Assembly (NCBI RefSeq): GCF_001895925.1
Contig: NZ_MPPI01000024.1
Span: forward strand, 1 to 64,000
Source of the DNA: Phormidesmis priestleyi ULC007
GTDB lineage: Bacteria > Cyanobacteriota > Cyanobacteriia > Leptolyngbyales > Leptolyngbyaceae
DNA: 64,000 nucleotides
Direction of reading: 5' to 3'
Shown here: in pieces, positions 22,883 to 35,661 of the stretch
Layout of the letters: every line of letters begins with the position of its first letter
Numbering within the stretch: the stretch's first letter is position 1
The notes under the pieces: generated by a model
The model's database searches: none
What the model was told of the DNA's origin: nothing
What the model saw: the letters and a program-made list of their open reading frames with translations, nothing else
Program-made: the position numbers and the translations under genes

Positions 22883-23911
22883 ATGTCTGACCTTCCGTTT
22901 ACTTTGGATCAGTTACGCATTCTTAAAGCGATTTCCAGCGAAGGAAGCTTTAAGCGTGCGGCTGATAGCCTCTACGTCTCGCAGCCTGCCGTGAGCTTGC
23001 AAGTTCAAAATCTAGAACGGCAGCTAGATGTGCCGCTGTTCGATCGTGGCGGACGACGAGCGCAATTGACCGAAGCTGGACATCTGCTCCTCAATTATGG
23101 AGAGAAGATTCTCACCCTCTGTCAAGAAACGTGCCGAGCGTTAGAAGATTTGCAAAACCTTCAGGGTGGCTCTCTGATCGTCGGCGCAAGTCAGACGACC
23201 GGAACCTATTTGCTGCCGCGCATGATTGGCATGTTCCGGCAACAATATCCTGACGTAGCCGTGCAGTTGCATGTGCATTCGACGCGGCGCACCTCTTGGA
23301 GCGTGGCAAATGGTCAGATTGATCTGGCAATCATCGGCGGCGAGATTTCTCCCGAACTGCAAGATTCCTTAGAGATTATTCCTTACGCGGAGGATGAACT
23401 CGCCCTGATTCTACCCACGTTGCATCCGTTAGCGCGAACTGAAGTGATTCAAAAAGATGATTTATATCGGCTGCAATTCATCGCTTTAGATTCTCAATCA
23501 ACGATCCGCAAGGTGATCGATCAGGTGCTGACTCGCTGTGGAATTGAAACCCGCCGCCTCAAGATTGAGATGGAACTCAACTCGATCGAAGCCATCAAAA
23601 ATGCAGTGCAAGCCGGGTTAGGCGCGTCTTTTGTGTCGGTTTCAGCGATCGAGAAAGAGTTGCAAATGGGAATGCTGCATCGGGCAAAAATTAACGATGT
23701 GGTGGTGAAACGCATGCTGTCAGTGATCATTAACCCAAATCGCTATCGATCAAAGGCTGCTGAGGCGTTTTGTCGAGAGATCTTGCCTCGCTTTACCAAT
23801 CAGCCCGTGAGTTTTGAGCGCAAACAGGCACCCAACCACGTCGAGCCACAAAACCTGAGAGCGCTGCTGCATGCGTCAAACAATCATCGAGTCACCCCTG
23901 AAGTTGAGTAG
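22883..23911 (+). CDS. rbcR: LysR-type regulator RbcR (Ycf30)
   Basis: 342-aa LysR-type transcription factor. The N-terminal helix-turn-helix runs [20 protein letters not shown] then [20 protein letters not shown], followed by [16 protein letters not shown]. The effector domain starts [20 protein letters not shown] and contains [20 protein letters not shown]. This sequence is almost residue-for-residue what I know as RbcR/Ycf30, activator of RuBisCO and CO2-fixation genes in cyanobacteria and red-lineage plastids. The last 35 residues are a polar tail. Next gene on the same strand is the Ser/Thr kinase, 72 bp away. Confidence 0.92.
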
Positions 23912-23983: not shown

Positions 23984-25411
23984 ATGCAGCTTTATTGCAC
24001 CCGTCCGGGTTGCTCAAAACCGACTAATTTCTTCACCGATCTAGATAACCTCACCACGCTAAAAACGATCAAGCAGAAGTTTTGCACAAACTGCGGCATG
24101 TCGTTAATTTTAGCTGACCGCTATTTGCCCACAAAACTGCTGGGTCAAGGCGGGTTTGGAGCCGCCTTTTTAGCTCGCGATCGCTACACTCCCGGTTTGC
24201 GGCAATGCGTAGTGAAGCAGTTTCAGCCGTCGGGTCGGCTCACGCCTGATCAGTTGCAGATGGCTCAAGATCTGTTTGAGCGGGAGGCAGAAGCACTCGA
24301 ACAGTTGGGCAGACAGCATTCCCAAATTCCTGATTTGTTTGCCTTTTTTGAACTGTCGATTCCTAGCCCTCATCAAGCGACAGAAGACAAATTCTTTTAT
24401 CTCGTTCAAGAATTTATTGATGGAGAGACGTTAGAAGAAAGGCTGATCCGTCAAGGCAAATTTTCTGAATCAGAGGTGCTAGAAGTGCTGAAAGAAGCGC
24501 TCAAGATTCTGCAATTTGTTCATGAAAACGGCTCGATTCATCGCGATATCAAGCCTTCTAACATCATGTGGAATCTCAATAGACGGCTTTATCTACTCGA
24601 TTTTGGAGCAGTCAAATACGCCACCAAAGCCGCAGGCGGATCGAAAGTCTCCACGAGTATCTATTCGTTAGGGTTTGCTCCCCCAGAGCAGGTTTCGGGC
24701 GATGAAGTCTATCCGTCTACCGATTTGTATGCGTTGGCTGTCACCTGCATTATGCTACTGACTGGCAAGCAGCCCCCAGAGCTTTTTAACGCTTACAACA
24801 ACTCTTGGAAATGGCAGAGCTATGTGCAGACGAGCCAGCTCCTAGCCGATGTGCTTGATAAAATGCTGCTGCCAGTTCCCGATCAACGATTTCAGTCTGC
24901 TACAGACGTGTTGGAGGCTCTCGTCGTTCGTTCACCGCTACCACAGCCGTCGTCTCAGCCATTACCCAGCAGCAATACGTCTCCTCCCCCGCCTGTCTCG
25001 GTTTCAGGCTCTCAACCGATTCGTCAACGGGCATCTGTGCAGCCGTTTTCTATTTTAGAACTATTGGGTAATGCGGCATTTACAGGATGTGAGGGGGCAT
25101 TGTTGGCGATCGCGCTCTTCAGTCTACCGATTCCCTCCCCAATCAGTGCAGGGCTTTGGCTCGTGATTGCCTTGGGCTTAGTCGTGGCTCAGTCTCGCCG
25201 CATTATCGAGAAAGTTGATCTGGTAATTTTGGCAGGTATCACGTTCGTCGTGATTGGATTTCTTCCGGTGCTTCACGCAGTGGTTGTAGGGCTGTCTTTA
25301 GGAAACGGATTCTTGGCGGTTGCAATCTTGGCGGGTTTTGGGGCACTGAGCGCGATCGCCATTACGGCTTTGTTTCGTCTGATTTACAAACTCCTCACCA
25401 ACCTTCTTTAG
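23984..25411 (+). CDS. Zinc-ribbon Ser/Thr protein kinase with four C-terminal membrane helices
   Basis: 475 aa. An N-terminal zinc ribbon (CTRPGCSKPTN and FCTNCG, residues about 4-38) precedes a Hanks-type kinase: glycine loop LGQGGFGAAFLARD, VVKQF with the invariant Lys, catalytic HRDIKPSNIMW, LLDFGAVK (D-F-G) and APPEQ. A Ser/Pro-rich linker leads to about four membrane helices at residues 360-475, so the kinase is anchored with its tail in the membrane. The Cys motif and layout are like SpkB-type cyanobacterial kinases. Three membrane-anchored solute-binding proteins follow on the same strand, which suggests a sensing link. Confidence 0.88.
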   Translation: MQLYCTRPGCSKPTNFFTDLDNLTTLKTIKQKFCTNCGMSLILADRYLPTKLLGQGGFGAAFLARDRYTPGLRQCVVKQFQPSGRLTPDQLQMAQDLFEREAEALEQLGRQHSQIPDLFAFFELSIPSPHQATEDKFFYLVQEFIDGETLEERLIRQGKFSESEVLEVLKEALKILQFVHENGSIHRDIKPSNIMWNLNRRLYLLDFGAVKYATKAAGGSKVSTSIYSLGFAPPEQVSGDEVYPSTDLYALAVTCIMLLTGKQPPELFNAYNNSWKWQSYVQTSQLLADVLDKMLLPVPDQRFQSATDVLEALVVRSPLPQPSSQPLPSSNTSPPPPVSVSGSQPIRQRASVQPFSILELLGNAAFTGCEGALLAIALFSLPIPSPISAGLWLVIALGLVVAQSRRIIEKVDLVILAGITFVVIGFLPVLHAVVVGLSLGNGFLAVAILAGFGALSAIAITALFRLIYKLLTNLL

Positions 25412-25490
25412 AGTCCGCAAATTCCGCAAACAGTCTTGAGGAATTTACGCATAAGCCCGTGAAGTCGTAGTCTATAAGCATTTAGTTAAT

Positions 25491-25658
25491 GTGAGTTCGA
25501 CAGAAGTGATTGGCTACGATTGTGAATTCGGGAAGCCCCCTAAATCCCCCATTCCGGGGGACTTTGAACCGGAAATCTTGGCTCAAAGTCCCCCAATTTT
25601 GGGGGATTTAGGGGGCTGAAGCCGCTCAAAACGAAACGAAAAGCCTCGTCGAACTCAC
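25491..25658. mobile_element. MITE-like palindromic element with 8-bp target duplication
   Basis: Terminal inverted repeats GTGAGTTCGAC (25491-25501) and GTCGAACTCAC (25648-25658) enclose nested inverted repeats: AGCCCCCTAAATCCCCC (25534-25550) with GGGGGATTTAGGGGGCT (25601-25617), and GGGGGACTTTGA (25556-25567) with TCAAAGTCCCCC (25583-25594). TTTAGTTA occurs on both sides (25481-25488 and 25660-25667), like a target-site duplication. It has no coding capacity. It lies between the kinase and the first binding-protein gene. Confidence 0.75.
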
Positions 25659-25731
25659 GTTTAGTTAGCAAGGTTGCGATCGCAGCTAAAAACTCAAGTC
25701 ATAGCTCGCTTCAAAAGGTGGCATCGGCTGT

Positions 25732-27120
25732 ATGGCTAAACGAAATGAATTGCTCGTGCTGGTCTTGGCGCTCCTGATCACAGGGGCACTTTTATTTATG
25801 GGTCTGCATTGGGTAGTCGGACAATTTACACCGCAAAATCAAGGCGTTCAACCTGCACAGATGGCGATCGGCGATCGTATTAGTTCAGGCAATCGAGGAC
25901 TGATCATCGCCAATGAAAGTCAGGCAAAACAAACTGGAATTGAGGCGTTTGCGGCTAAAGATTTTAATCGGGCGATCGAGCAATTCAAAGTGGCAATGCA
26001 AGGCAATCGCAACGATCCTGAAGCCTTGATTTATTTGAATAATGCTCAACTCATGCAGAACGCGCGATCGTCGGTGAAGATTGCAGTCAGCGTCCCGATC
26101 GGCAGCAATCTGAATGTGGCGCAAGAAATTTTGCGCGGTGTGGCACAAGCCCAAGATGAGGTTAATCGCCGCAGCAACGAAAAGCCTTTAGAAGTCACGA
26201 TCGCCAATGATGACAACGATCCTGAAATTGCCAAACAAGTGGCGGCTGAATTTGTCAAAGACGGCAAAATTTTAGCGGTGGTTGGGCACAACGCTAGCGA
26301 TGCCTCGATCGCGGCGGCTCCCATTTATCAAAAAGGGCAGTTGCCGATGATTACGCCAACCAGTTCGGCAGATACGCTGTCTAACGCGGGTAGCTATATC
26401 TATCGGGTCGTGCCTAGCACTCGATATACGGCAGATGTGCTGTCTCGCTATGTGGTTAAACGCCTGAATCAAAAGAGTATTGCGATTTGTTTAGACGCAA
26501 AATCTCCTGACAGTCAATCGTTTGCAAACAACTTTATCTCTGCTCTTTCATCCGAGGGCGGTCGGTTTATCAACATTGGGTGCGATTTTTCTGCTCCTGA
26601 CTTTAACCCTGGCACCGTGATTTCTAAAGCGGTAAGCAGTGGGGCAGAGGGGTTGTTATTATCGCCGCAAGTAGACCGAGCAAATTCTGCGATCGACGTT
26701 GCCCGCACCAACCAAGGCAAGCTGCAATTGATGGGCAATCAAACGCTCTACACTATCAACACTCTCAAGCTGGGGCAAGCCGACGCAAATGGGTTACTGT
26801 TGCCTGTCGTGTGGCATCCGAGTGCGATCGCAAACAATCCTTTTGCCAACAATGCCTCTAACTATTGGGGCGGGCGAGTCAATTGGCGAACCGCGATGGC
26901 GTATGATGCGGTGCAGGCGATTTTGACCGGGTTGAAGCAAAACGAAAGCCGAGACGGACTGCAAAAAGCGTTTTCTAACCCAGAGTTTGCCGCAAAAGGG
27001 GCAACGGGCACCATCCAATTTTTGCCGTCGGGTGATCGCAATGGGTCAGCGATTCTCGTCCGGGTTCAGCCCAGTTCTCAAGCTGGAATCGGTTATGATT
27101 TTGTCCCCGTCTCTCCGTAA
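25732..27120 (+). CDS. Membrane-anchored amino-acid-type solute-binding protein, copy 1
   Basis: 462 aa. One N-terminal membrane helix (LLVLVLALLITGALLFMGL) is not followed by a lipobox, so the protein stays anchored with most of it in the periplasm. Residues about 60-105 look like a TPR-type unit (GIEAFAAKDFNRAIEQFKVA, EALIYLNNAQL). From residue 115 on it is a branched-chain-amino-acid-type binding protein (Peripla_BP_6): VKIAVSVPIGSNLNVAQEIL, VGHNASDASIAAAPIYQKG, MAYDAVQAILTGL. No permease or ATPase gene is nearby, so a sensing role is as likely as transport. The next gene is a clear paralogue. Confidence 0.8.
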   Translation: MAKRNELLVLVLALLITGALLFMGLHWVVGQFTPQNQGVQPAQMAIGDRISSGNRGLIIANESQAKQTGIEAFAAKDFNRAIEQFKVAMQGNRNDPEALIYLNNAQLMQNARSSVKIAVSVPIGSNLNVAQEILRGVAQAQDEVNRRSNEKPLEVTIANDDNDPEIAKQVAAEFVKDGKILAVVGHNASDASIAAAPIYQKGQLPMITPTSSADTLSNAGSYIYRVVPSTRYTADVLSRYVVKRLNQKSIAICLDAKSPDSQSFANNFISALSSEGGRFINIGCDFSAPDFNPGTVISKAVSSGAEGLLLSPQVDRANSAIDVARTNQGKLQLMGNQTLYTINTLKLGQADANGLLLPVVWHPSAIANNPFANNASNYWGGRVNWRTAMAYDAVQAILTGLKQNESRDGLQKAFSNPEFAAKGATGTIQFLPSGDRNGSAILVRVQPSSQAGIGYDFVPVSP

Positions 27121-27141
27121 GTCTTTTCACCTGGCTGCTTT

Positions 27142-28554
27142 ATGTCTCAGAAAAATGAAACTCCGGTTCTGATTCTGTCACTCTTGATCACGGCTGCACT
27201 ATTGGGGACAGGCTTTTGGCTGCTGATGCCGCGATCGCCCGTCAAGCCTGATCCGTTAGCCACAACGAGCCAGAATTTATCGACCAACGATCGCCTCAGT
27301 CAAGGTGAACGAATTTTAGTTCCTGTAGAAAGTAGGGCAGACAATCCAGCGTTTGCTCAGGCAAAGCAGGCGGGAGTCGCGGCGATCGTGGCTCAACAAT
27401 ATGGTCAAGCTGTGACCCAGTTTGAGTCAGCCCTGCAAAAGTCTCGCAATTCGCCCGAAACGCTGATCTATCTCAACAACGCTCGAATTGGAAGTAACAA
27501 ATCTTATACGATCGCCGTTGCCGTTCCAGTCAGCGCTGATCCTAACGGCAGCTTAGAGATTTTGCGAGGGGTGGCTCAGGCACAGAGCGAAGTCAATCAG
27601 GCAGGCGGCGTAAAAGGTCTTCCGTTAAAGGTGGCGATCGTCAGTGATGATAATAATCCTGAAATCGCTCAACAATTGGCGAATACATTGGTGCAAAAGC
27701 CTGAAGTGCTGGGAGTCGTGGGACACTATGCCAGCGATGTGACTCTTGCCGCCGGGAGTGTCTATAACACTGGCGGGCTGGTGTGCATCTCTCCGATTAG
27801 CACAACCGTCAAGCTCTCTGGCTTCGGGAAGTATATTTTTCGTACAGTGCCGAGTGACTATATCGCGGCGGGAGCTTTGGCAGACTACACCGTCAAAACC
27901 TTACAACAGAAGAATGTAGCGGTATTTTTCAATTCTCAAAGCGCTTACAGTCAATCGCTCAAATCGGAATTTAGTCGCGCGATCGCTCTAACCGGAGGAC
28001 AGGTGTCAGGCGAATATGATTTGTCGGCCCCCGATTTTAGTGCAGCGACGGCGGTCGATCAGTCGTTAAAACAAGGCGTAAAAGCGCTGATGCTGGCACC
28101 TAACACAGGCACCCTCGATAAAGCGCTTCAGGTAGTGCAGGTTAATCAGCGACGGATGACTCTGTTGGCAGGTGATGATGTTTATGCGCCCAAGACTTTA
28201 GAGGTTGGCGGACAGCAAGCCGTCGATATGGTGATTTCGGTGCCATGGCATATTAATGGCAATCCCGGTTCTGTCTTTGCCAAGAAGTCGCGATCGCTGT
28301 GGGGCGGCGATGTCAACTGGCGCACGGCGATTTCTTACGATGCGGTTCAGGCGCTGGTGGCGGCGCTTCAGCGTGACCCGACTCGATCGGGCGTTCAGCA
28401 AGCGCTTTTGTCTCCAGATTTTTCGGCAATGGGTGCAGCAGAGACGGTGCGATTTTTGCCATCGGGCGATCGCAATGTGGGCATTCAGCTTGTGAAAGTG
28501 TCGCGGGGCGATCGATTCGGTTCAGGCTTTGATTTTGTTCCAGTCCAACGATGA
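27142..28554 (+). CDS. Membrane-anchored amino-acid-type solute-binding protein, copy 2
   Basis: 470 aa, paralogue of the preceding gene with the same order of parts: N-terminal MSQKNETPVLILSLLITAAL membrane anchor, short TPR-like stretch (GVAAIVAQQYGQAVTQFESA, ETLIYLNNARI), then a Peripla_BP_6 domain (YTIAVAVPVSADPNGSLEIL, VGHYASDVTLAAGSVYNTGG, ISYDAVQALVAAL). Both end in DFVPV. The two coding regions clearly arose by tandem duplication and have diverged. The gene starts 21 bp after the first one's stop and 10 bp before the third gene, consistent with a single transcript. Confidence 0.8.
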   Translation: MSQKNETPVLILSLLITAALLGTGFWLLMPRSPVKPDPLATTSQNLSTNDRLSQGERILVPVESRADNPAFAQAKQAGVAAIVAQQYGQAVTQFESALQKSRNSPETLIYLNNARIGSNKSYTIAVAVPVSADPNGSLEILRGVAQAQSEVNQAGGVKGLPLKVAIVSDDNNPEIAQQLANTLVQKPEVLGVVGHYASDVTLAAGSVYNTGGLVCISPISTTVKLSGFGKYIFRTVPSDYIAAGALADYTVKTLQQKNVAVFFNSQSAYSQSLKSEFSRAIALTGGQVSGEYDLSAPDFSAATAVDQSLKQGVKALMLAPNTGTLDKALQVVQVNQRRMTLLAGDDVYAPKTLEVGGQQAVDMVISVPWHINGNPGSVFAKKSRSLWGGDVNWRTAISYDAVQALVAALQRDPTRSGVQQALLSPDFSAMGAAETVRFLPSGDRNVGIQLVKVSRGDRFGSGFDFVPVQR

Positions 28555-28564
28555 GAATTATTTT

Positions 28565-29611
28565 ATGTCTCAAAAAAACGAAACGCCCGCGCTGATTCTT
28601 TCGCTTTTGGTGACATCTGGATTGTTAGGCGGTGGGTTTTGGTGGTTTACTCAGCGGTCTGGTTTTGATGCAAGCAAGGTAGCTCTGCCCAATCCACAAA
28701 ATAGCGCTACTCCTTCAGCCAATTCGTCAAGCCAGCCCAATCCGTCGGCAACTAATCTTACTCAACAACCGCTACCTTCTGGACGGTTTAGCTATGGAGG
28801 CAGCACGTCTTGGGCAACGATTCGGCTGTCGGTTGACCCAGTTTTGCAAGCGGCTCATCCAGAGTTTCAATTGCGCTATGTCAATCCGATCGGAAGTCCA
28901 CCGAGTTCGGGTGCTGGCATCAAGATGCTGTTAGACGGGCAGATTGCCTTTGCTCAATCGTCGCGTCCGGTTTCGGATCAAGAATATCAACAAGCGCAGC
29001 AGCGAGGATTTAGCCTCAAGCAGATTGCAGTCGCGATCGATGGGTTGGCAGTGGCGGTCAATCCTGGTCTTAACGTTGCCGGGTTAACGATCGACCAGTT
29101 AAAAGCCATTTACAGTGGTCAAGTCAAAAATTGGCAAGAAGTCGGCGGATCTAATGTGCCGATCGTGCCGCTGTTTCGATCTTCAAGTACTCAGAATGTA
29201 TTTGGCGAAACCGTTCTCGCGGGGCAGCAGCCAGGGGGAAACGTGCAAATTGTTTCGACGACGACTCAAGCGCTGCAAAAACTCGCTGCCACTCCTGGAG
29301 GAGTTTATTTTGCGTCCGCGCCAGAAGTGGTGCCTCAATGCACCGTCAAGCCGTTAGCGATCGGAAAATCGCCCGGTCAGTTTGTGCCTCCTTATCAAGC
29401 GCCTTTAGTGACGAATTGCCCGACTCAACGCAATCAGTTAAATATTCAGGCGTTTCAGAATGGCAGCTACCCGATCACCCGCAATTTGTTTGTAGTGGTG
29501 AAGCAAAACGGCGGCACTGAACAACAGGCAGGAGAGGCGTATGCGAATTTGCTGCTGTCAGATCAGGGGCAGGATGCGATCGCTAAAGCAGGGTTTGTGA
29601 GAGTTCGGTAA
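28565..29611 (+). CDS. Membrane-anchored PstS-like substrate-binding protein
   Basis: About 348 aa. The N-terminus MSQKNETPALILSLLVTSGL is nearly the same as that of the preceding gene, but the rest belongs to a different fold: a PstS-type (PBP-like) domain with GAGIKMLLDGQIAFAQSSRP, IDQLKAIYSGQVKNWQEVGG and VPLFRSSSTQNVFG. This kind binds phosphate or related oxyanions. An earlier in-frame ATG would add 12 residues that overlap the previous gene; the one at MSQKNETP is chosen because of the shared leader. So the leader was shuffled onto an unrelated binding domain. No pstCAB genes are near. Confidence 0.8.
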   Translation: MSQKNETPALILSLLVTSGLLGGGFWWFTQRSGFDASKVALPNPQNSATPSANSSSQPNPSATNLTQQPLPSGRFSYGGSTSWATIRLSVDPVLQAAHPEFQLRYVNPIGSPPSSGAGIKMLLDGQIAFAQSSRPVSDQEYQQAQQRGFSLKQIAVAIDGLAVAVNPGLNVAGLTIDQLKAIYSGQVKNWQEVGGSNVPIVPLFRSSSTQNVFGETVLAGQQPGGNVQIVSTTTQALQKLAATPGGVYFASAPEVVPQCTVKPLAIGKSPGQFVPPYQAPLVTNCPTQRNQLNIQAFQNGSYPITRNLFVVVKQNGGTEQQAGEAYANLLLSDQGQDAIAKAGFVRVR

Positions 29612-29619
29612 ACGTAGGT

Positions 29620-32600
29620 TTAAGCTTTGTGCAAAGTGCTAATTGCATCAACGAGTTGCTCTAGATCAATCGGTTTTGACAGATGGAGTTGAAAGCCTGC
29701 TGCCAACGCCTGCTGCTGATTGGAGTCTCCCGCGTAAGCAGTCAGGGCGATCGCTGGAACATTCCCCCCTTGCTCTGATAACCGCGATCGAATCTGCTGC
29801 ATCAGTTTATAGCCGTCCATTTCGGGCATACCAATGTCACTGATTAACACATCGGGTTGAAACGATTCCAGGCAGGCTAACCCTTCAGCAGCGGAGGCAG
29901 CGGCCAAAACCTCTGCGCCATATTGAGTCAGTACTGCTGTGAGCAATTCACGAGTATCCGGTTCATCATCCACAATCAGGACGTGAATGCCCGTCAGATC
30001 GAGTTCCGGCGCGGGTGATTTATCGGACTGGCTCCCTTCTGGCTCAGCATCCAGCAAAGGCAACCAAACGGTAAACGTTGCTCCTTGCCCTTCACCCTGG
30101 CTATCAGCAGCGATCGTGCCACCGTGCGCCTCAACCAACTGACGAACGATCGCTAACCCTAACCCCAGTCCGCCATACTGACGAGTTGTTGAAGCATCTT
30201 CCTGGCGAAATGAGTCAAAGACATGCGGCAGAAAGTCGGGGTTGATGCCTTTGCCCGTATCGCTGACTGTTATTTGTGCCTGGTTAGCGCTGCGCTCTAG
30301 CCGAATGTCTACCCGTCCATGATTAGAAGTGAATTTGATCGCGTTAGACAGTAGATTCCAAACAATTTGCTGGAGCCGCCCTGAATCGCCCGACACTCGC
30401 CCAATCTGAGGTAGCACCGAATGTAACAAAATTGATTTGGCAACGGCGGCGGTTCTAACCGTCTCGATCGCCGACTCAATGACAAACACCAGATCGACGG
30501 GAGCGACATTCATATTGAGCTTGCCGCGAAGGATTTTTGCGATATCAAGCAGGTCATCAATCAGTTGACACTGCAATTTGGCATTGCGTTCAATGGTTGC
30601 CAGAGCCTCAGATGTTCTAGCCGCATCCCATTTTCGGCTTTGCATCAGTTTTGCCCAGCCCAAAATCGGGTTGAGGGGCGATCGCAACTCATGCGAGAGA
30701 ACTGCCAGGAATTCATCTTTGAGCCGATTGGCACGTTCAGCTTCGACTCTGGCGAAGCGCTCTTGTTCTAGCAAGCGTTTGCGATCGGTGATGTCTTGCA
30801 CGTTGCCCAGCATTCGGACTGCATTACCCGCCGCATCATAAAACACCTGACCTCTAGACGCGATCCAGCGATCGCCCTCCGGATGCAGAATTCGATAATC
30901 CGACTCATAGTAACCTTGCTGCTGCTGGACAGCACAACTCACTGCTTCGGTAGCGGCGGCGAGATCGTCCGGGTGCAAATAAGTTTTCCACTGCTCATAG
31001 CTGGCTTCTGGGGTGGCTGGGTCAAGTCCAAACAGTTGGCAGTACTCTTCCGATACCTGTGCCTTATTTTGGATCATGTCCCAATCCCACAGACCTGAGC
31101 GCGTTGCTTTGTGCGCTAACCTCAAGCGGTTAGTACTCTCCTGCAAGGCTTGTTCTGCCTGTTTGCGATCGGTAATGTCTTCGGCAATCCCAGCAAACCG
31201 ATAGATCTCACCAGCTTCATTTTGCAAGGGAAAACACCGATCGTGCACCCAGCAAATGCGACCGTCGTCTAAAACAATCCGGTACTCTTCGTCAAATTGC
31301 CCCGCCGCCGCTTTTGCTGCAAACGCTTTGTCAACCCATTCGCGATCAGCGGGATGAATATAACTGACCCAGACTTGTTGATCGGCGTATATCGCTTGCG
31401 GGTTAAGCCCCCACAGGCGATCATAGGCAGGGCTGACGTAAGAAACTCGGTTAGCGGGCATCTCTTTGATCCAGAAGACTGCATCAATATTTTCGGCAAG
31501 CTGGCGGAAGCGGGTTTCACTCTCTTGCAACGCTTCCACGTCTCGTTTACGTTCGGTGATATCGAGATCAATCCCCGCCATCCGCACGGGCTGACCGTTT
31601 AGATCATAAAAGACTCTGGCCTGAGTCAAGGCCCAGCGCACCCCCCCCTGCGGATGCAGTGCCCGAAATTCGAGGTTATAGTCTTCTCCGGTCGTGATTG
31701 CCCGATCGATCGCGGACAGCACTCGCTCACGATCGTCTGGGTGCAGGAGGGAGTTAAACATCTCAAAGGAGCCGTCAAACCCGCCGGGTTCTAACCCAAA
31801 CAGGGCTTCCAGGTTATCAGACCAGGTAATTGTTCCAGTCTGAATATCCCAGTCCCAGGTGCCCATACACGAGGCTTGCATCGCCAACCGCAAGCGTTCT
31901 TCGCTCTTTCGCAGTTCCGCTTCGACCTGGTTGCGTTCCGCCAACTCATCTTGTGCCTGCTGATATAGTTCTGCCTGTCGCAAGGCAATGCTGACCTGAA
32001 TTGCCAGTTCTTTGAGCAGATCGACTTCTAAGGCTTGCCACGATCGCGGTGCCGCACAGTGATGTGCAATCAGCAAGCCCCAAAAATGGTCGTCGTGCAA
32101 AATCGGCACTACCAAGTTTGCCTGCACTTGAAACTGAGCCAACAATCTAATGTGGCACGGGTCAATATTGCTGCTGTGAATATCTGGGATCGCCGTTACA
32201 TTTCCTTGGCGATAGCGTTTGACGTAATCCTCGGCAAAGGCGACATCGTGAGTCACCGATTCGGGGCGGCTAAAGCGAAGGTAGTTTTCGGCAAGGCAGG
32301 GATCATATATGGACAAGTCCAGCAGCGATCGCCACTCTGCCACCACCGATTCGGCAACCACAGTGCCGTTGCCATCGGGTTGCAACTGAAAAATCAGCAC
32401 GCGATCGGTATGCAGAAATTGCCGCACCGTGGCGGCCGTGGTTTGGAGGATCTCATCCAGATTGAGGGATTGATGAATTTTCTGGGTAATCTGCCAGACG
32501 ACCTGTTCTCGTTCGATCCGCTGTTGCAGTTGGGTGTGTAGCCGCACCGTGGCGATCGCTCCATTCACCGCCAGATACAAGCCTTCGGGGGTAATTTGCT

Positions 32601-32934
32601 CCTTCACCAGATAATCTTGAGCGCCCGCTTTCATTGCTCGCACCGCGATCGCCTCATTCCCCTGCCCCGTCACTACAACCACTGGCAGACAAGGTTGGGG
32701 CGTGGGGGAGGGCAATTGCGCCAGAAACTCCAGCCCATCGAGATCGGGCAAGCGATAATCGAGCAATACCGCATCCGGTCGGTGCTGCCGCCAAAGCTCC
32801 AGCCCTTGCTGCCCTAGCGATGCTTCTAGAATGGTGTAGGAATAGTCCGGGTCGTGCAGCAAATAGCGCTGGTAGAGTTCTCGATCTTCCGGCGAGTCAT
32901 CGACAATTAGAATCGTGCGCGAGATCACATTCAT
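29620..32934 (-). CDS. Hybrid sensor histidine kinase: REC-GAF-PAS-PAS-PAS-HisKA-HATPase-REC
   Basis: 1104 aa, no membrane helix. Order: receiver (residues about 8-125, DAVLLDYRLPD with acceptor Asp), GAF (about 150-320), three PAS/PAC units each ending in a D-I-T-E/D-R-K motif (about 345-465, 475-595, 600-720), dimerisation/phospho-acceptor helix FLAVLSHELRSPLNPILGWA, HATPase (NLLSNAIKFTSN; DTGKGI; GGLGLGLAIVRQL), and a C-terminal receiver (DVLISDIGMPEMDGY). It starts 15 bp after the response-regulator gene, so it is the last gene of the phytochrome operon. The N-terminal receiver may take phosphate from the phytochrome branch. Confidence 0.9.
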   Translation of the reverse strand: MNVISRTILIVDDSPEDRELYQRYLLHDPDYSYTILEASLGQQGLELWRQHRPDAVLLDYRLPDLDGLEFLAQLPSPTPQPCLPVVVVTGQGNEAIAVRAMKAGAQDYLVKEQITPEGLYLAVNGAIATVRLHTQLQQRIEREQVVWQITQKIHQSLNLDEILQTTAATVRQFLHTDRVLIFQLQPDGNGTVVAESVVAEWRSLLDLSIYDPCLAENYLRFSRPESVTHDVAFAEDYVKRYRQGNVTAIPDIHSSNIDPCHIRLLAQFQVQANLVVPILHDDHFWGLLIAHHCAAPRSWQALEVDLLKELAIQVSIALRQAELYQQAQDELAERNQVEAELRKSEERLRLAMQASCMGTWDWDIQTGTITWSDNLEALFGLEPGGFDGSFEMFNSLLHPDDRERVLSAIDRAITTGEDYNLEFRALHPQGGVRWALTQARVFYDLNGQPVRMAGIDLDITERKRDVEALQESETRFRQLAENIDAVFWIKEMPANRVSYVSPAYDRLWGLNPQAIYADQQVWVSYIHPADREWVDKAFAAKAAAGQFDEEYRIVLDDGRICWVHDRCFPLQNEAGEIYRFAGIAEDITDRKQAEQALQESTNRLRLAHKATRSGLWDWDMIQNKAQVSEEYCQLFGLDPATPEASYEQWKTYLHPDDLAAATEAVSCAVQQQQGYYESDYRILHPEGDRWIASRGQVFYDAAGNAVRMLGNVQDITDRKRLLEQERFARVEAERANRLKDEFLAVLSHELRSPLNPILGWAKLMQSRKWDAARTSEALATIERNAKLQCQLIDDLLDIAKILRGKLNMNVAPVDLVFVIESAIETVRTAAVAKSILLHSVLPQIGRVSGDSGRLQQIVWNLLSNAIKFTSNHGRVDIRLERSANQAQITVSDTGKGINPDFLPHVFDSFRQEDASTTRQYGGLGLGLAIVRQLVEAHGGTIAADSQGEGQGATFTVWLPLLDAEPEGSQSDKSPAPELDLTGIHVLIVDDEPDTRELLTAVLTQYGAEVLAAASAAEGLACLESFQPDVLISDIGMPEMDGYKLMQQIRSRLSEQGGNVPAIALTAYAGDSNQQQALAAGFQLHLSKPIDLEQLVDAISTLHKA

Positions 32935-32949
32935 GGTTTAATCTTCAAA

Positions 32950-33387
32950 TCAATTGGGGAGCGTGGTCACTTCAAACCAGTAATCAACCAGCAGTTGCAC
33001 ATCTCGCTTTAGTTGAGCAAAATTAATTGGCTTAACGATGTAGCTATTGACTCCAAATTGATAGCAGTCTTCAATGTCTTTTGGGTTGCTAGACGTGGTG
33101 AACACGACAACCGGAATGCTTTTCAGGTTTTTATTTTGTTTAATTTGGCGTAACACTTCTCGTCCATCGGTTCCCGGCAGATTCAAATCCAGCACAATTA
33201 GACCAGGACGGGGGGTAATTTGATCGATATAATCGCCTGTTCGATTGAGGAACGCAAGTGCCTGTTCGCCGCTGATACAGCGCTGAATGGAAATTGGAGT
33301 GGACGATCGGCGCAAAAATCGTTGCAGTGCCTCAAAATCTTCATTGCTGTCTTCCACAATTAACAACGGGGTGGGTCTGGCAATCAT
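32950..33387 (-). CDS. Single-domain response regulator (Rcp1-like)
   Basis: 145 aa, receiver domain only, with no output domain. Acidic pair at the start (LIVEDSNEDFEAL), acceptor Asp in LIVLDLNLPGTDGREVLRQI, Thr in VVVFTTSSNP and Lys in YIVKPINF. The longer loop and CYQFGVNSYIVKP segment are like Rcp1, the regulator paired with cyanobacterial phytochromes. Its ATG overlaps the phytochrome stop codon (ATGA), so translation is coupled. It is thus very likely the phosphorylation partner of that phytochrome, working with the downstream hybrid kinase. Confidence 0.9.
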   Translation of the reverse strand: MIARPTPLLIVEDSNEDFEALQRFLRRSSTPISIQRCISGEQALAFLNRTGDYIDQITPRPGLIVLDLNLPGTDGREVLRQIKQNKNLKSIPVVVFTTSSNPKDIEDCYQFGVNSYIVKPINFAQLKRDVQLLVDYWFEVTTLPN

Positions 33388-35661
33388 GCGTCTGCCTCCG
33401 CTGCCAGGGTGAAGTAAAACGTGCTGCCTTCAGCCGGAATTGATTTTACCCAAATTCTGCCGCCGTGCCGTTCCGCGATTTTGCGGGCGATCGTCAGCCC
33501 TGCCCCTGTGCCGCCGCCAAAGTCGTCCCGTCCATGCAGACGGCGAAAGATCTGGAAGATTTTGTCGAGGTGCTCTGGCGGAATGCCAATGCCGTTATCA
33601 CCCACATAAAATGTGATCGGAGAAACGTTTCCTGCCCCTGCAATTTCTCCTTCCTGTCCTGCCAGATAGCCAATTTCTATCCATTTTTCTGCTTTGTTGT
33701 TGTATTTAATCGCGTTGCTAATCAAGTTGGTGAACAGTTCATTCACCTGAGCGCGATCGCATTTAACCTCCGGCAGGAAACGAGGAATGCGAAACTCGAC
33801 TTCATTTTGCGGTCGGGCGATTGTCAGGGTGGCGATCGTTTGATGGACTAACTCATCGAGGTTCACCGTTTGGCGCATCAATTCGGCGCGTCCCAATCGA
33901 GAGAAATGCAGCAGCGAATTGATCAGGTCTTCCATACGTTGCGTCAGCCGCACCATCGTTTGCAGTTTTGCAACGCCATCGCCATCTAATGCCGTTGCAT
34001 AATCTTCCATCAAGAAGTTGGCATAGTTGTGAATGCCCCGCAGTGGTTCTTTCAAATCGTGGGAGGCGATGTAAGCAAACGAATCGAGTTCTTCATTGCT
34101 CCGCTGCAATTCAAAATTCATTAGCGCCAATTCGTCTGCCTGCCGCAACACCACGCCCACCAGCAAACTTCGCAGTTCAATCACGGCTTCAATTTCGCAA
34201 GGTTTCCAGGGCAGCGCAGAAGCCCGCACTGTTTCCTGCCACAAATCAAACGATCGCCGCGGAGACATTCGCAAACTGTTGTCTGCTAAAACTTCGACGG
34301 GTTTGTTGGGGTTGCCGCCCCAATTTACGGTTTGAACCACCTCCGGGCGAAACCAGAGAATGTAGTTGTGGTGAACTTTGGAAATTTCCAGCGCTAGCAC
34401 CCCACTGGCGATCGCCTTGAACGACTCGGCAGCGGGATAATTTTGGGAGAGCGATCGCGTTTCAAATAAGCTTTGATGAAAGTGAGGTTTCATCCAGTTG
34501 AGTAAGGCACGAACGTCCGCTTCAGCAGGGGTTTCACCCACGCAGATGCATTGGCTGGCGCTACAGATCACGGCTCCGGTTGCATTCACCAGTTGCAAAA
34601 GTTCAGGTTCCAGTTGCACCATGCCATCCAGGAAATACTCAGTCTGAGATAACGCTTCAATGAACTGGGCTTGTAATGTCTTTAACTGCACTTTGTAGGC
34701 TGTGTCTTCGTTGGTGACTTTATTTGCCAGTTCTGCCGACATCACCTGCCCAATAAACTCGCAAACTGTGCGGATATTGTAGGAAACATATTTGGGAGAC
34801 AAATGATGGCAGGCAATCAATCCCCACAGCTTTTGATCCTGCATCAGCGAAATGGACATGGAAGCAGTCACGCCCATATTTTGCAGATATTCCAGGTGAA
34901 GGGGAGACACACTTCGCAACACGGACAAACTCAGATCAAGCGGTTGCTGAGTGACAGGATTGTTTGTCGGAGTTAACGCGACAGGCTGGTAGCTGACATC
35001 GGGAATTAGCCGCAGCCAGTTAAGGGTATACAGGTGTCGAGCTTGCTGGGGAATGTCGGAAGACGGATAGCGTAAGCCCAGAAGGCGTTTTCTGGTTGGT
35101 ATCTTCTGCGATCACGCTGCCTGATTCCTCCGCATCAAACTGATAGACCATGACGCGATCGAAGCCAGTAATTCGCCGGACTTCTTTGACAACCTCTTGA
35201 CACATTTCCAGCAGCGTCGGTGCTTTTTGAATGCGGGTAATCGTGCCTTTCACTTGATGATAAAAGTCGAAAAAGTTGGCATGACTCTCGATGGTATTCG
35301 GCTCTAATTCCAGCACAATGAACGAATCTAGGCGATGCACAATGCCATCAAACGCGATGGATTGATGCTGCCGCTCGATCGATAAATTGAGCGGATTAAC
35401 GCTCTCAAAATCCTCTGTCAAACATTGCTGAATTAGCTTAACCTGCTCGTCACCCAATAAATCTGCCAACGGCTGACCTAGCAATTCCTCGGCAGAGCGA
35501 TTGAGCAGTTCAAACGTGTTGCGGCTTACCTGAAGGATTTCTAGATTGGAACCGTGCAAAACTAGCAGCACCCCATGAGGTTGAACCAGTCCTGGAATGT
35601 GGATCGGTTCGCGATCGCAGTTAGTTAAATCGATTGTCAAATCCAGCGTTTCGTCAGACAT
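33384..35661 (-). pseudogene. Bacteriophytochrome histidine kinase, frameshifted in the GAF domain
   Basis: Two reading frames make one phytochrome. The first (35020-35661) has the PAS start LTNCDREPIHIPGLVQPHG, with Cys15 at the biliverdin-binding position, and the GAF part up to SGSVIAED; it then falls out of frame and stops. The second frame starts in the bilin pocket, LGLRYPSSDIPQQARHLYTL, and continues through GAF (SVSPLHLEYLQNMG, no Cys where Cph1 has one), PHY, HisKA (FAYIASHDLKEPLRGIHNYA) and HATPase (GGTGAGLTIARKI). The total, 2278 bp, is 1 modulo 3, so one base too many or two too few occur near 35080-35086. About 758 aa if restored, the family's usual size. A sequencing error is the alternative. 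Confidence 0.85.

Follow-up and report, generated by a model that had tools for sequence, protein, structure and literature searches.

Four consecutive genes on one strand are considered here: that for a Ser/Thr kinase with a membrane domain and, downstream, those for three binding proteins, two of which (BP_6-A and BP_6-B) have a Peripla_BP_6 domain while the third is PstS-like (Table 1). The window, i.e. the whole stretch of DNA analysed, is 64 kb long. A preliminary description, made from the sequence alone, had proposed a kinase and three binding proteins on the same strand, and all four genes are present with the coordinates it gave. The start of the PstS-like gene is corrected to the ATG at 28565; the TTG at 28529 merely lengthens the frame. 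The LysR gene is 72 bp upstream of the kinase gene, and the closest solved relative of its product is 5y2v, the 'Rubisco operon transcriptional regulator' (E=7e-34). The PstS-like gene is followed immediately by a convergent cluster at 29620-34928, which encodes a response regulator and two histidine kinases, the first of them a hybrid.

Table 1. Features of the locus, with positions counted from the start of the window
Feature	Position	Strand	Remarks
LysR-type regulator, RbcR/NdhR (CcmR) class	22883..23911	+	Pfam HTH_1 + LysR_substrate
Membrane Ser/Thr kinase	23984..25411	+	4-Cys prefix, kinase domain, Pro-rich linker, four C-terminal TM helices
Gap with repeated element and hairpin	25412..25731	.	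320 bp, kinase to BP_6-A
BP_6-A	25732..27120	+	leader MAKRNELL..., TPR-like linker, Peripla_BP_6 domain
BP_6-B	27142..28554	+	leader MSQKNETP..., TPR-like linker 53-117, Peripla_BP_6 domain
Leader of BP_6-B	27142..27224	+	short cytosolic KNE motif + one TM helix
PstS-like binding protein	28565..29611	+	PBP_like_2, leader common with BP_6-B
Leader of PstS-like protein	28565..28647	+	
Hybrid histidine kinase, 1104 aa	29620-32934		convergent to PstS-like gene

The gap between the kinase and BP_6-A genes contains a MITE-like repeat of ~205 bp, ~79% identical to a genomic copy elsewhere (copies are at L164:10883-11081 and other places in the genome). At 25534-25617 it has a hairpin of -70 kcal/mol (z -8.4) without a U-tract. 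Possibly this element lowers co-transcription, and then only in this strain.

The kinase and its neighbours across cyanobacteria

The kinase matches Pkinase (Pfam, E=1e-32) and its prefix matches the 4-Cys prefix model NF045510 (NCBIfam) at 40.7 bits against a cut-off of 24. The prefix, which is zinc-ribbon-like, occupies residues 1-41, the kinase domain 42-313 and the TM part 357-474. The catalytic residues (K78, HRDIKPSN and DFG) are all in place and are invariant among 32 relatives, so that the protein has what NF045510 requires of a 4-Cys prefix Ser/Thr kinase, the prefix followed by a kinase domain with its catalytic residues. An AlphaFold model (pLDDT 76) has C-terminal helices at 357-379, 385-404, 411-435 and 442-474; the zinc-ribbon Ser/Thr kinase with four C-terminal membrane helices that had been proposed is upheld by model, prefix and kinase matches alike. 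The loops between the four helices are short and the kinase is therefore predicted to have essentially no domain on the outside. Foldseek with the model gave kinase domains only in its best 50 and no solved relative of the four-TM domain.

A profile of the TM domain has matches in 128 of 242 cyanobacterial genomes. In 126 of the 128 there is just one match per genome (in the other two it is in two pieces at one place), and divergent copies of the four-TM kinase are in 19 further genomes. The four-TM kinases are a single-copy subfamily of the 4-Cys prefix Ser/Thr kinases, a subfamily defined in the present analysis.

A BP_6 or PstS-like gene is downstream of the kinase gene and on its strand in at least 76 of the 128 kinase genomes, within ~320 bp in 75 of them and at 2.65 kb in the other. 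Across genomes, the first binding-protein gene starts a median of 50 bp after the kinase TM domain ends. The occupant of this downstream slot is BP_6 alone in 34, PstS-like alone in 24 and a combination in the remainder. These gene-order counts are lower bounds (at L312 a kinase gene is followed by a PstS-like gene though its genome was scored 'none'). Eighty loci were named (from Nostoc, Fischerella, Leptolyngbya, Phormidesmis and others), 76 of them with stand-alone binding proteins. In 56 of these 76 loci a 4-Cys kinase is no more than four genes upstream of the stand-alone binding protein; the rest of the named loci include contig fragments and lineages in which the genes are separated. 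In many families the 4-Cys kinase gene is again immediately preceded by a LysR gene of the RbcR/NdhR class, often beside ndhF, and carbon control may possibly be tied to this kinase.

Kinase and sensor also occur as one protein. The present genome encodes, on another contig, an 809-aa kinase-TM-linker-BP_6 protein, the same type is found in other genomes, and many of the BP_6 frames in the genome survey are 750-880 aa long. At L177 (G162) a 4-Cys kinase directly behind the same LysR gene lacks the four-TM domain and instead carries a single TM and a PstS domain, and L176 (G200) has a kinase-TM-PstS fusion. Kinase-ANF-receptor fusions were listed for Nostoc in 2005 (PMC1262709). The fusions had not been foreseen in the preliminary description and give direct backing to its reading of the kinase and binding proteins as kinase and sensors.

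Two long PstS-like frames of the present genome (L165:3686-5629 and L166:3720-6734) are not kinases but PBP_like_2 proteins with a C-terminal DUF4912. A fusion of another sort, CHAT domain-TM-PstS-like, is encoded at L172:4390-6522 and joins a PstS-like sensor to a caspase-like protease domain.

Binding domains and the search for transporter genes

Peripla_BP_6 is matched by BP_6-A (Pfam, E=7e-30) and BP_6-B (E=7e-33), and PBP_like_2 by the PstS-like protein (Pfam, E=3e-33), whose relatives are PstS proteins, confirming the binding-protein fold. An AlphaFold model of BP_6-B (pLDDT 87) runs from a leader helix through a disordered spacer and TPR-like helices to the binding domain, which is nearest to Liv-type amino-acid receptors (Foldseek, TMt 0.77-0.89 for the best eight). 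The earlier fold claims, two Peripla_BP_6 proteins with a TPR-like linker and one PstS-like protein, held, the linker being seen in the BP_6-B model.

The guide for pocket comparison was E. coli LivJ (sequence from NC_000913), with its ligand-contact residues S79, T102, Y150 and E226. Their counterparts in BP_6-B are S198, T221, Y269 and D345, and all four LivJ-type contact residues are also present in BP_6-B orthologues. BP_6-A is a paralogue of BP_6-B with two pocket changes, Y to D and E/D to Q, and it is therefore inferred that its ligand is probably different or that it has none. The PstS-like family keeps a glycine/serine-rich first loop, an SSRP motif and a conserved R with a serine/threonine motif after it. 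These fit an oxyanion such as phosphate, an inference from sequence alone that falls short of proof. The ligands initially suggested, amino acids and phosphate, remain inference, with the BP_6-B pocket matching that of LivJ and BP_6-A lacking two of the contacts.

A motif/phmmer scan found no ABC ATPase or LivHM-type permease ORF in the window. A second scan, of the 76 named loci with stand-alone binding proteins, found none within four genes on the same strand (0/76). As a positive control, this second scan picks up the ABC genes that accompany true PstS and Liv-type genes in the present genome (four transporter loci). PstC/PstA-type permeases are outside its profile; an accompanying ATPase would have been detected. 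The claim that no permease or ATPase gene is near held, and relatives adjoining such genes, which were to have refuted a sensing role, were not found in the 76 loci. A role of the binding proteins in a transporter encoded close by was rejected, given no ABC genes in the window or the 76 loci versus working controls. Of the features of an ABC importer (HAAT/Liv or Pst type), the binding-protein fold is present and the permease and ATPase are not. A fused kinase-BP_6 gene on contig C39 has two LivHM-like permeases 2.7-5 kb away, on the opposite strand and with other genes intervening.

A rival explanation is that the binding proteins are orphan transport receptors feeding ABC permeases encoded elsewhere, with the kinase adjacent for regulation and phosphorylating the transporter. 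In its favour, the binding folds are of transporter type, and the genome has 13 BPD_transp_2 permease matches, of which several have no BP_6 match next to them. The genes of cyanobacterial Nat-type transporters can be dispersed. A distant permease for the binding proteins is possible and not excluded. However, the kinase fusions, the 0/76 loci with ABC genes, a sequence-specific TM leader and fusions without that leader would all be unexpected, and orphan transport is considered unlikely.

The shared leader and its association with the kinase

The leader consensus is MSQKNETPVLVLSLLITLGLLGGGFWWF on BP_6 proteins (118 distinct leaders) and MSQKNETPILVLSLLITAGLIGGGFWWF on PstS-like proteins (101 distinct leaders), i.e. 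it is the same on both binding folds. The polar or small positions N5, E6, T17 and G24 are conserved on both, and the spacing of L10, T17 and G24 places all three on one helix face. Entropy is 1.02 bits in the leader, 2.40 in the next 25 residues (the linker) and 1.03 in the binding domain, the leader thus matching the binding domain in conservation. A common anchor leader had been claimed for the three proteins, and this held; 'MSQKNETP' is on BP_6-B and the PstS-like protein, whereas BP_6-A reads MAKRNELL.

A DNA pattern for M-x-QKNET has 54 matches in 232 genomes, whereas the same pattern reversed, as a control, has 2. About 44 of the 54 mark the beginning of a BP_6 or PstS-like gene. A leader-profile search found mostly BP_6 proteins, PstS-like proteins and a second PstS-like subfamily. 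On these pattern and profile results, a chance match was rejected as the source of the leader. The pattern matches in L214, L215, L216 and L220 are not leader proteins. A KNE motif before the TM was absent from all 10 of the 10 distinct fusions checked. The MSQKNET/MPQKNET leader is also on WD40 propeller and GUN4-type proteins (L213:4238-5287, L218:4587-5267 and L219:5462-5737), each of these cases resting on one or two genomes and the L219 frame being short. WD40 and GUN4 folds are known fused to cyanobacterial Ser/Thr kinases, as their C-terminal domains (PMC1262709). In some lineages, BP_6 proteins have other leaders (MANNKKE..., ...SPPPIV...).

The second PstS-like subfamily (IDGSTTMV..., L294-L310) has the variant leader MSQGKETTVLVLSLLVTAG and is from genomes with kinase and sensor unlinked.

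At E<=1e-13 the leader profile matches 85 genomes with the kinase and 0 of the other 114. At E<=1e-6, 25 leader genomes, mostly of family f23, were at first without a kinase match. Use of the divergent f23 kinase as query found it in 19 of these 25, while the 11 control genomes, which have no leader match, all lacked it. That f23 is an exception, with the leader and without the kinase, was rejected, as 19 of its 20 genomes here carry the divergent kinase. With it included, 122 of the 128 genomes with the leader at this threshold have a kinase, and the six without are largely fragmented or incomplete assemblies. The f23 leader genes examined do not adjoin the kinase gene and so the match there is not explained by gene linkage. 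Leader and kinase are together in 21 families, though the counts are not phylogeny-corrected. There are 25 kinase genomes without a leader match at E<=1e-6, some with diverged-leader binding proteins or kinase fusions, and some binding proteins are present without a detected four-TM kinase. Since the leader is almost never without the kinase across the surveyed cyanobacteria, the set has the look of a modular receptor rather than of a nutrient pump. Failure of kinase and binding proteins to co-occur in other genomes, the other outcome named in advance as refuting, was not borne out by gene order (76/128) or by the leader genomes (122/128).

It is possible that the leader is merely a good membrane anchor, copied among neighbours by duplication or gene conversion and without docking, with any sensing by the kinase being via other contacts. 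Leaders could share descent within an operon, and the other leaders on BP_6 proteins and the 25 kinase genomes lacking a good leader match also favour this. Against it are the conservation of N5, E6, T17 and G24 on two folds, the tracking of the kinase by the leader in 21 families even where the genes are unlinked, and the occurrence of the leader on WD40 and GUN4 proteins. A further rival is that the leader proteins dimerise through the leader helix as a periplasmic scaffold or ligand buffer, with the kinase being mainly redox-responsive through its 4-Cys domain. The L10/T17/G24 face is inferred to be typical of helix-helix packing, and SpkB of Synechocystis is linked to carbon/nitrogen balance, with PstS accumulation in its mutant (PMC10651672). 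SpkB carries a redox-active Cys motif. However, the kinase-BP_6 and kinase-PstS fusions and the leader-kinase co-occurrence are left unexplained, and this rival is judged very unlikely.

A putative split receptor kinase and known systems

The best reading, and a likely one, is that of a split transmembrane receptor kinase, with sensors that plug into a single kinase. The domains, gene order and fusions on which it rests are shown, as are the conservation of the leader and its co-occurrence with the kinase at genome level. It is the simplest model to cover the fusions, the common downstream slot and the lack of a transporter, as well as the leader and its link with the kinase. The Ser/Thr kinase would be in the cytoplasm on its four-helix membrane domain, without a sensor outside, and the BP_6 (amino-acid-type) and PstS-like (oxyanion) proteins would be periplasmic sensors held to the membrane through an uncleaved leader. 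The cytosolic KNE motif of the leader and its TM helix would dock on the four-TM domain, taking the place of the covalent connection present in the fusions. On binding its ligand the binding domain would close, and this change would be relayed through linker and leader helix to the kinase, which would phosphorylate cytosolic targets. One kinase would serve several exchangeable sensors. Docking, the ligands, co-transcription, the direction of signalling and the phosphorylation targets are inferred. Counting against this reading are the strong hairpin element between the kinase and binding-protein genes in the window, the two contact residues that BP_6-A lacks, the kinase genomes without a leader match, the binding proteins without a detected four-TM kinase and the possibility of a distant permease.

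The proposal from which the analysis started, sensing for a membrane kinase instead of import, is supported and largely holds in the 242 genomes, the absence of import being itself inferred. As to its suggestion that the leader is a functional docking part, conservation and a tie to the kinase were found; physical docking on the kinase is inferred. A bolder reading, which could as readily prove wrong as right, makes the KNE leader a portable docking code: its TM plug would fit the four-helix membrane socket of one dedicated kinase and so allow any of several sensor folds (BP_6 and PstS-like, on occasion also WD40 and GUN4) to be read out. If so, there would be an interchangeable-sensor Ser/Thr receptor system across much of the cyanobacteria.

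How bacterial Ser/Thr kinases are activated is, according to PMC6069109, still unsettled. A sensor-less kinase, candidate sensors and a candidate docking motif are now named together. If the split receptor is real, cyanobacteria could sense amino acids and phosphate in their surroundings with no need to take them up, beside an RbcR/NdhR-class regulator and the ndhF region, and a plug-and-socket principle would be added to receptor construction. Annotation would also be corrected, because such proteins are likely labelled ABC transporter substrate-binding proteins. No paper describing this gene set was found in the open-access literature searched.

The binding-domain folds are like those of the ABC receptors LivJ/LivK and PstS, as are the contact residues in the case of BP_6-B, but the present proteins are without permease or ATPase and have a TM leader, a TPR-like linker and a kinase neighbour. 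SpkB of Synechocystis is also a cyanobacterial Ser/Thr kinase tied to carbon/nitrogen balance, with PstS accumulation in the mutant (PMC10651672). The Cys-rich prefix of SpkB resembles that of the present kinase. Fusions of kinases to solute-binding or ANF-receptor domains in Nostoc sp. PCC 7120 and Streptomyces coelicolor (PMC1262709) are alike in logic, and the genome has its own BP_6 fusion of that kind. However, these are one chain with one TM, whereas the present module is split and combines a four-TM kinase with sensors that are interchangeable.

In the GlnH-GlnX-PknG system of Mycobacterium and Corynebacterium, an amino-acid-sensing binding protein signals across the membrane to a Ser/Thr kinase (PMC6069109, PMC9769921). 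There too, one operon encodes both a transporter-type binding protein and a Ser/Thr kinase, the latter bearing a Cys metal-binding rubredoxin domain in mycobacteria, and the present module shares the feature of a kinase and binding protein in a conserved cluster without a transporter. The known system has a separate GlnX relay with periplasmic four-helix bundles, whereas here there is no such gene and the TM helices are in the kinase. PknG is soluble with its own C-terminal TPR domain, but the present kinase ends in four TM helices and the TPR-like part is on a binding protein. GlnH is a lipoprotein, whereas the present sensors are of two unrelated folds, all with a common TM leader. With two hallmarks missing (a separate GlnX and TPR on the kinase), the module is therefore not classed as a member. 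By analogy, it would resemble GlnH-GlnX-PknG in its working but differ in its build.
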